A stretch of DNA of 64,000 bases, taken from Lota lota (taxonomy: Eukaryota > Chordata > Actinopteri > Gadiformes > Lotidae). Location of the stretch: contig JACYXH010000839.1 of assembly GCA_026745465.1 (NCBI GenBank), positions 310,001-374,000 on the forward strand. Reading direction: 5' to 3'. The notes below the pieces were generated by a model that was given only the letters and a program-made list of their open reading frames with translations, had not been told where the DNA came from and ran no database searches. Below are positions 10,101 to 13,100 of the stretch, piece by piece. Positions within the stretch are counted from its first letter, which is position 1. Each line of letters starts with the position of its first letter. The translations under genes and the position numbers were made by a program.

Positions 10101-13100
10101 TATACTATGTGTATATAGTCCATTGTGTGTGTGTGGCAGTATAGTATGTGTGTGACTGTGTATGTGTGCATTGTAGGCCTACATATTGTATGTATCTGTG
10201 TCTGTGTGTGTGTGTGTGTATATTGTGTGTGTGTGTGTGTATATTGTGTATTGTGCATGTGTGTGAATGTGTGTGTGGCAGTAGATGTCCGCCCAGGCAG
10301 CGCAGGCTGTGTCCGCGGGCCTCAGCCAATCAGAGCAGCTAGCACAGATGTGACAGGCTCACAGGAATGTGCGGAATGCGGAGGCGCTGGAGTGGGTGTG
10401 GCCAGCCGTGGCCTGGGGGGAAGGGGGCGTGGCTAGGGCAGTATCAGCAGACAGTCCTGTTCTGCTGTTCTGCTGGTTCCAAGTGCGCGGAGGCTAGCTA
10501 GCTAGCTACAGACTAGCGGCAGGCTAGCAGGCCGGCAGTACTTTTATGGTAATTGCAGTCAAGGACAAGGAGAGGGAGCGTTTCGAAGAGTAGGAATTAG
10601 ACACTTTTTTTTTCTCTTGTCATTATATGTGTGGATGGTGTGAAGGTGCTGAACCCAGACTGCTGTTTGTGTTGTGTGACTTCAGGCTATTATTCATAAT
10701 GATAACCCTCCCCCCATACACACACACATACACACACACACACACACACACACACAGTCACCACACACACACACACACACACACAGAGTGCAGGCACACA
10801 CCCACGCCCTTTGTGTGTCTGTGTCACGCACGCACATACACACAAGGGGACTTGAAATATCCCCGTTAATTGTTTTTGAATATTGTTTTTAATATATTAA
10901 TAGATTTTATAATGGCAAAAGGTTCTAGCTTGCTCATGAATATTACTTTTGAGACAGTTGGTAGTCGGTCTCGTGTCTACCTGATAGGCTGTGACGCGCC
11001 CTCGCTACGCAGGGGGTCTGTCTATCGACTTTATACCATAAGAAGGCATGACGATTGCAAACAACAGGCTAGCAATACAATAAAGGATGATTCCCTATTC
11101 GAGTAGGCTACTTTGGATTGCTTTTGACTGGTTTACCAAAGCTTAAAACACATCATACATAGCAAACCATTGGGCATATAGGCCTACTGCCTAATGGTTT
11201 ACTACAGTAGGCCTTCTATATTTACCGTGATGAGAATAGGCAGAATGGGAATGGGAATATGTCCTCTTTTTTTTCAGTAATAAAACATCACATATTTTGT
11301 TTGTATATGGACCGCCAAACTACAAATTTCCACGTTTGTACTTTGAGAAATCTGGTCACCTTGGTCAAACCCCCCCACACGAACGCATGCCACACACACA
11401 CACACACACACACACACACACACACACACACTTAGTCAATTTTGCACCCACAGAAATCCTGTACGCAATGAACGAAATGTGAAAGAGCGATAATATTCCC
11501 AGTTGCTCGCTGTGTATTATCTGAGCGGGAAAGATAGTTTTCTTAAAGGAAGTTATCATAGAGCCCCAACGCTCAGAGCAGAAGGTTGCTCTCGGTCCAA
11601 CCTGTTTGTGCAGAATGTCGAGTGTAGATGCTATGAAAGGCACGCTCTTGTTTTCTAAGCGCGCAGTAATTACGCTGCACGTCCCTGCGAGCGCGCGGCG
11701 AAGAGGTGTCAAACGAGGAAACAAAACGGGCCAAAAGAAAACCCCGATGAACATTGCTTTCTCCTAAGCATTAACGGTTAAAGTGACCCAATTCAAGACA
11801 TAATAAATATCCAAAACGTTGCTACAGGACATAAGAAGAGGCTGACCCTTCCGTGACAATCAATTTGAGTATGTTTCCCTTCTCGTGAACCCTTGGGGAA
11901 GGTCGCCGTGTTGCGCGGTAACGGAGAGTGGAAGAAGCGCATTCAGTTTGCGAGGAGAGTGCGCCCTCGTCTGGTCACCCTTGGTCATTGTTCATAAAGA
12001 GCGCTCACAGACGACATTTCGTTTATATTCCTATTCGTTCATATAAACTGTTTCTCATAAAGACCTTTTTGTTGTTCTTTACTTTTTTTCGCTACAGGTC
12101 GCAATGAATTGATAGCAAGGTACATAAAACTGAGGACAGGAAAAACACGAACACGAAAACAGGTAAAAATAATGTTTCATGATACTTCTAACAAGTACAG
12201 TTACTATTATAAGCTATTAAACTATTATAAGCTAACATAATATTTAATATATATAACATAATCTAACATAATAACATAATATAAGTCATAATGCACATTT
12301 ATTTGTCTGCAAGTGTTTGTCTGCAACCAAAAAAGAAAGTGTGTGTGTGTGTTTGCTGTGTGTGTATGTTTTTGTGTGTGTGTGTGTGTTAGTGTGTGTT
12401 AGTGTGTGTTAGTGTGTGTGTCTCTATGTGTGTGTGTCTGTGTGTGTGTATGTGTTAAGGTGTGTGTGACGTGATCGGCATGTTCTTATATTTGATTCGC
12501 TCAAATGCTGTCTCACACCTCCCCTCCCAGGTGTCTAGTCACATTCAGGTGTTAGCGCGGAAGAAAGTGCGAGAGTACCAGGCCGGTATCAAGGTGGGTG
12601 CTGCTCAACGGCCCCCAGGCAAAACCTACAGGGGGCCTCTCTCTCCTTCCTCTTTTGGTTACGGCTCTTCCTCTCTTCTTCCTCTCCTTCCCTTCTTCCC
12701 TTGTTTCCTTCTCTTCTCCTCCATCCTCCCTCCTTGGCTCCTCTCCTCCGCAGGTTTCTAGCCACTTGCAGGTTCTCGCCAGGAGAAAGTCCCGCGAGAT
12801 CCAGTCGAAGCTGAAGGTATGCGCTGCCAGAGGGGGCTGTGGGGTGGCTGGTGGGAAACGCTTGGCTTGTTCCTTTTTTTGTTTGGCCGCTTACCGGTTA
12901 GCTTGTGCACCATTTTCTTTTTTTAAAGAGCAAAAAAAAAAAAAGCCTGAACGTAAATCTGTCGGTTGTTTTAGATTTGGCCGTTGTTGTTTTGCTACGT
13001 GGAGGATTTAAAACGGAGCTTTGCTAGCGAGATGCATCCCTCTTTTCTTTTAGGATTTATTATTTTAAACACTGAACAATGATTTTAAAAGGATTTCTTG

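Follow-up and report, generated by a model that had tools for sequence, protein, structure and literature searches.

TEAD proteins form the DNA-binding end of the Hippo/YAP pathway. Chicken TEAD3 is said to occur as two isoforms, DTEF-1A and DTEF-1B, which Azakie and colleagues reportedly described in 1996 as proteins of 433 and 432 residues whose splicing differs at the C-terminal end of the TEA domain. Proteins of these two lengths do not result from swapping equal 63-nt exons alone. They may thus be a partial earlier sighting of the exon pair described here, combined with a microexon, or something else. Exons 18 and 18b of FOXP1 are mutually exclusive homologous exons inside a DNA-binding domain, and their exchange changes the DNA preference of the protein. 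The TEAD pair is likewise a swap of homologous exons within the DNA-binding domain of a transcription factor; unlike FOXP1, it leaves the residues of a conserved half unchanged and switches a kinase motif.

Exons 4a and 4b of OGDH, which are mutually exclusive and have been studied across vertebrates (excerpts of PMC7969005), resemble the TEAD pair in being tandem and homologous, in the short intron between them, and in the long AG-free tract before the second exon. The OGDH pair belongs to another gene with another role, and its branch points lie near the upstream donor, where they have been mapped, according to the same excerpts, at 25-41 nt in human and 46 nt in ocean sunfish, whereas the putative one in the tead3 gene studied here lies at 67 nt. 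Alternative splicing is also known to touch the DNA-binding domain of TEADs. However, TEAD4-S and other TEAD4 splice forms skip or truncate this domain (excerpts of PMC5867882 and PMC3382240), while the TEAD3 exons 4a and 4b exchange one full helix-3 segment for another. Among the open-licence PubMed Central papers listed, judged by their titles and the openings of their abstracts, we found no description of homologous exons in TEAD1 or TEAD3, and the matches listed for the main texts of two human surveys of mutually exclusive homologous exons (PMC5740500, PMC9741552) include no mention of TEAD. Mutually exclusive homologous exons are a known kind of event; no precedent was found in these open-licence papers for such a pair occurring in both TEAD1 and TEAD3 and toggling a kinase motif of a DNA-binding helix. 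Isoforms of this kind may already be present in public gene annotations.

Two helix-3 exons in a tead3 gene

The window (the whole stretch of 64,000 nt that was analyzed, C839:310001-374000) contains a tead3 gene that extends from about 3934 to 23088. Its relevant features are listed below.

3934..4135, + strand: first coding exon of tead3, with a probable ATT start in GCCACCATTG and the first part of the TEA domain (tblastn with a human TEAD3 sequence, frame check, TEA Pfam family)
12098..12162, + strand: exon 3, the next part of the TEA domain, ending at Gln89
12531..12593, + strand: exon 4a, TEAD3-type helix 3 with Val102 (RKKV)
12594..12753, + strand: intron between 4a and 4b, 160 nt, with an AG-free pyrimidine tract at 12632-12751 whose only adenines are 12661 and 12723
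12754..12816, + strand: exon 4b, TEAD1/2-type helix 3 with Ser102 in RRKS
14760..14771, + strand: 12-nt microexon encoding AMNL
16283..16393, + strand: following exon, starting in phase 0, end approximate (tblastn with a human TEAD3 sequence, frame check)
20566..23088, + strand: span of the YAP-binding-domain exons, by which the gene was identified as tead3

The original prediction had named the gene TEAD3, and its C-terminal domain bears this out. The YAP-binding domain has its best match in PDB with human TEF-5 (TEAD3, 381 bits), followed by TEF-1 (TEAD1) and TEF-3 (TEAD4) with 361 bits each and TEF-4 with 313 bits. Both window exons preceding 4a score above the cut-off for PF01285 (TEA). 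Exons 1-3 provide 89 codons from the ATT start, and exons 4a and 4b both correspond to TEA residues 90-110.

Two 63-nt phase-0 exons for these residues, each with its own acceptor and donor and separated by 160 nt, had been proposed from the sequence, and the coordinates proved exact. Being equal in length, identical in phase and homologous in protein, they constitute a tandem duplicated exon pair. Exon 4a is flanked by cccag upstream and gtgggt downstream, and exon 4b by cgcag and gtatgc. Under a simple splice-site matrix, the donors of 4a and 4b score above 99.7% and 98.7%, respectively, of the 4653 GTs in the window, and their acceptors above 99.8% and 99.6% of the 3833 AGs. The reading frame stays open with 4a, with 4b, with both or with neither, as established by joining the exons. 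At the protein level 4a and 4b agree at 14 of 21 positions, at the DNA level at 38 of 63, and eight of the 14 common residues are written with different codons, so the pair is neither a chance reading frame nor a recent copy. A chance reading frame is further ruled out by the splice signals, the recurrence in three genes and the selection. An assembly duplicate was also ruled out, since 25 of the 63 bases are different in the two copies and three contigs carry this arrangement.

The TEAD3-like character proposed for 4a holds, with Val102 in RKKV. Exon 4b had been called TEAD2/4-like. The first half of this label agrees with TEAD2, which is presumably of the 4b type with Ser102, and 4b is of the TEAD1 type as well; the second half does not stand, as TEAD4 has Ala102 both in human and in this genome.

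Distribution, conservation and age of the pair

We searched the genome (575 Mb, 867 contigs) at the protein and DNA levels. The Pfam TEA search revealed five TEAD loci (C839, C175, C659, C177 and C216) on the basis of 9 exon matches among 11 candidates, and these counts are lower bounds. According to best PDB matches, the window and C175 genes correspond to TEF-5/TEAD3, C659 and C177 to TEF-1/TEAD1, and C216 to TEF-3/TEAD4. This set of TEAD genes points to a ray-finned fish; zebrafish Tead1a, Tead1b, Tead3a and Tead3b are listed in an excerpt of PMC6759317. The DNA search with positions 12500-12850 gave 16 matches: the window itself, one in C175 spanning both 4a and 4b, two in C659 (one each at 4b and 4a), one in C216 at 4b, and eleven to the pyrimidine tract only. 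The C177 locus was missed by this search and recovered by the Pfam search.

The tandem pair, always with 4a first, is present in three of the five TEAD genes, namely the window tead3, the C175 tead3 and the C659 tead1, where the intervening intron measures 160, 145 and 90 nt, respectively. The pair had been described for TEAD3; its occurrence in a tead1 gene rules out a TEAD3-only event. A 4b-type exon was found in all five TEAD genes and 4a in three, the latter count resting on the single DNA search and a reading of the five loci. In the second tead1 (C177) we found 4b only: over 40 kb the next-best peptide match scores 25 versus 88, and 4a DNA gives only 8-base matches to the 389-nt intron 3 and the intron that follows. 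In tead4 (C216) only the 4b-type exon was seen, with no 4a in the 1,246 readable bases upstream and 5,000 unread bases beyond. These unread bases (C216 piece L011, 2502-7501) lie where tead4 exon 3 should be and may hold a 4a copy as well.

Comparison of corresponding exons demonstrates strong constraint on both versions. Between the window and C175 tead3 genes, 4b has 11 base differences and no residue difference, and 4a has 10 base differences and one residue difference; between the window tead3 and the C659 tead1, 4a has 13 base differences and two residue differences. Neutral simulations with equal numbers of changes gave means of 7.2, 6.7 and 8.4 changed residues, respectively, and none of the 20,000 runs for each of the three comparisons was as conservative as the observed exons. 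Four further exon pairs gave P values from 0 to 0.00005. Exons 4a and 4b, including 4a in tead1, are kept as protein under strong purifying selection, and the observation of two constrained, equal-length alternative exons in a real TEAD3 gene is confirmed. If 4b in tead3 (or 4a in tead1) were a relic that has dropped out of splicing, it would have drifted, contrary to the counts for 4b between the tead3 genes and for 4a between the window tead3 and tead1. Although each has one weak splice site (the C175 4b donor and the C659 4a acceptor), and although the second tead1 gene yielded no 4a, we regard a relic as very improbable.

The copies resemble each other by exon position more than by gene. 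The window 4a agrees with the tead1 4a of C659 at 19 of 21 residues and at 50 of 63 bases, versus 14 and 38 with its own neighbor 4b. Five of the 21 residue columns (100, 102, 107, 108 and 109) separate the three 4a exons from the five 4b-type exons, whereas no column distinguishes the four exons of tead3 from the C659 pair. When the comparison is limited to the three genes with both exons (six exons), ten base columns separate by exon position and three by gene. In a maximum-likelihood tree of the eight helix-3 exons the 4a/4b split has support of 97/99, in an alignment of 63 columns; of the five inner branches only this one is well supported (starred), and the tree carries a warning about long branches. 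Trees with tead3-only or C659-only clades are rejected (p-AU 0.003 and 0.009). This clustering by exon position places the duplication before the TEAD1/TEAD3 split, which probably dates to the early vertebrate genome duplications, and a single duplication before that split is the simplest account.

A competing possibility is that gene conversion or exon shuffling recently brought 4b into tead3 from a different TEAD gene. The 4b protein is indeed nearly that of TEAD1, with 18 of 21 residues in common with the C659 4b. At the base level, however, the window 4b shares only 48 of 63 positions with the C659 4b, and for the C216 exon the figure is 47 of 63 (C177 being outside the matrix); ten of the 18 common residues use different codons, and position and order are identical in three genes, all of which makes recent copying highly unlikely. 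Judging from these comparisons, 4a and 4b probably derive from an ancient tandem duplication older than the TEAD1/TEAD3 split, in which an ancestral exon would have been copied and both copies retained, and they probably serve as alternative exons of which each mRNA normally takes one. With the pair in three genes, the swap is very old, and a single Hippo-pathway gene can probably make differently regulated proteins.

The 12-nt microexon located after 4b encodes AMNL in the window, AMNV in C175 and VTSM in C659. With two search patterns it was detected in all three genes with 4a and in neither of the two that yielded no 4a. This co-retention among five genes would arise by chance about 1 time in 10 and is suggestive only.

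Splicing of exons 4a and 4b

Exons 4a and 4b are probably used alternatively, in a mostly mutually exclusive manner. Candidate branch adenines, numbered relative to the first 4a donor base, were located in all three introns. Within the AG-free tract of the window they lie at +67 (12661) and +129, and one more at +34 sits two bases before an AG. The C175 candidates are at +46, +48, +75 and +129. In the C659 tead1, a single adenine follows +50, the acceptor's own excepted, and it lies at +81, a distance of 8 nt from the acceptor. Unless the branch point there is a non-adenine, it must fall at or below +50. The steric threshold for the distance between donor and branch point is about 50 nt (excerpts of PMC7969005). 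Steric exclusion of 4a-4b joining is thus likely for the C659 tead1, in whose 90-nt intron the usable branch adenines, all at most 50 nt from the 4a donor, would hinder it. In the window tead3 the spacing (+67 and +129) exceeds this threshold and makes a weak case for such a block; with this looser spacing additional factors would be required for exclusivity, such as proteins bound to the long pyrimidine tract.

The original prediction had placed the block in the window itself, at a single branch-point-like site about 65 nt from the 4a donor. The site is retained as candidate adenine 12661, at 67 nt, but it is not the sole adenine, and the crowding argument fits tead1 instead. The AG-free stretch of the window intron, with its two adenines, covers 120 nt before 4b, and among 27 other TEAD acceptors (assigned automatically, a few wrongly) the corresponding median is 43 nt with five above 100 nt. 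A long AG-free tract was ruled out as a diagnostic, as it is not unique to the 4b acceptor. The branch-like sequence TGGTTAC common to the window and tead1 introns was discounted as evidence, because two introns of 160 and 90 nt are expected to have about one 7-mer in common by chance. The Rbfox motif TGCATG occurs once in 2.6 kb of the window and three, one and zero times in 2 kb of C175, C659 and C177, respectively, at no common position.

These spacings also bear on a rival reading, in which most mRNAs would join 4a to 4b and encode a TEAD3 whose helix-3 segment is present twice in a row. The frame would remain open, and nonsense-mediated decay would not purge such a product; the 160-nt intron, whose candidate branch points (+67 and +129) keep sufficient distance to the donor, would permit it. 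Against this, a second helix-3 segment would have to enter a compact domain (the matched PDB TEA chains have 70-107 residues and align with a single segment of this kind). Moreover, usable branch adenines are lacking beyond +50 in the tead1 intron, and conservation extends over the full helix-3 unit in each copy. We consider regular double inclusion improbable and favor the use of one exon per mRNA.

Splice-site strengths differ between the genes. Among the eight helix-3 exons, two sites are weak, the C175 4b donor (3.8) and the C659 4a acceptor (4.6), while the other 14 score 7.9-11.8. The summed acceptor and donor scores of 4a versus 4b are 20.6 versus 18.3 in the window, 17.7 versus 14.7 in C175, and 14.5 versus 18.0 in C659. 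These strengths suggest 4a as the default exon in tead3 and 4b in tead1. Such a preference agrees with the mammalian versions, as TEAD1 and TEAD4 are of the 4b type in PDB alignments and TEAD3 is presumably of the 4a type.

Possible consequences of the helix-3 swap

Replacing 4a by 4b in the window changes seven residues: I94L, K100R, V102S, Y105I, A107S, G108K and I109L. The first half of the segment (VSSH.QVLAR) is unchanged except for I94/L, and VSSH and QVLAR are identical in all eight helix-3 exons. The residues that we take to contact bases (S100 and Q103 in TEAD4 numbering) fall in this half. Ser102 in RRKS is found in four of the five 4b-type exons and in none of the three 4a exons, the tead4 (C216) exon having Ala102, and the motif R-R-x-S is present in 4b and absent from 4a (RKKV).

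The RRKS sequence fits a PKA-type motif, and PKA is said to act at Ser102 of TEF-1, as Gupta and colleagues reportedly found in 2000. Phosphorylation by PKA and PKC inhibits DNA binding of TEADs (excerpts of PMC6628201). In the 4b form, RRKS with Ser102 would be offered to PKA and DNA binding lowered, and the 4a form with Val102 would escape kinase control at position 102. With the conserved half unchanged and Ser102 switched, we favor the interpretation that the swap acts more on kinase control or DNA-binding affinity than on the choice of bases.

The earlier expectation of two proteins with different DNA-binding properties is plausible in general terms. In its stronger form, in which the swap mainly alters the DNA sequence that is read, and not regulation or affinity, it draws on the position of the segment in TEA helix 3 and on the differences at residues 94, 100, 102 and 105. 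However, VSSH and QVLAR, which presumably hold the base-contacting residues, do not vary, and the striking change is Ser102, so this form is rather unlikely, though it deserves more weight than the other alternatives considered above, and a FOXP1-like change of specificity is compatible with the sequence.

If one gene chooses between a PKA-sensitive and a PKA-insensitive helix 3, YAP output would be tunable by splicing, independently of YAP. The mammalian paralogs have apparently fixed one version each. We tentatively suggest, as a possible history, that the single TEAD gene preceding the genome duplications spliced two helix-3 forms, with and without the kinase-controlled Ser102, that fish tead1 and tead3 still do so, coupled to the retained 12-nt microexon, and that in mammals TEAD3 kept 4a and TEAD1, TEAD2 and TEAD4 kept 4b. 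If true, this would explain the deviant DNA-binding domain of TEAD3, whose mammalian helix 3 would be a fossil of ancestral alternative splicing, and would provide a clear case of alternative splicing replaced by gene paralogs.

Several additional features of the locus were recorded. Of the 284 downstream stop-to-stop open reading frames, ten were compared with Pfam in search of a neighbor gene; two matches were obtained, both far below the cut-offs, and no gene could be named. Both tead3 genes (window and C175) appear to start at ATT in the context CACCATTG, and both tead1 genes at ATG. An in-frame ATG before the TEA segment is absent from C175 and occurs once in the window, five codons before this segment. 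Human TEAD3 also uses a non-AUG start. A TG-rich tract of 117 bases (12339-12455) ends 75 bases before 4a and is a possible site for UG-binding splice regulators. Two minisatellites lie in apparent introns of tead3, one at 16449-16777 with a 38-bp unit repeated 8.5 times and the other at 17481-17998 with a 42-bp unit repeated 12.6 times.
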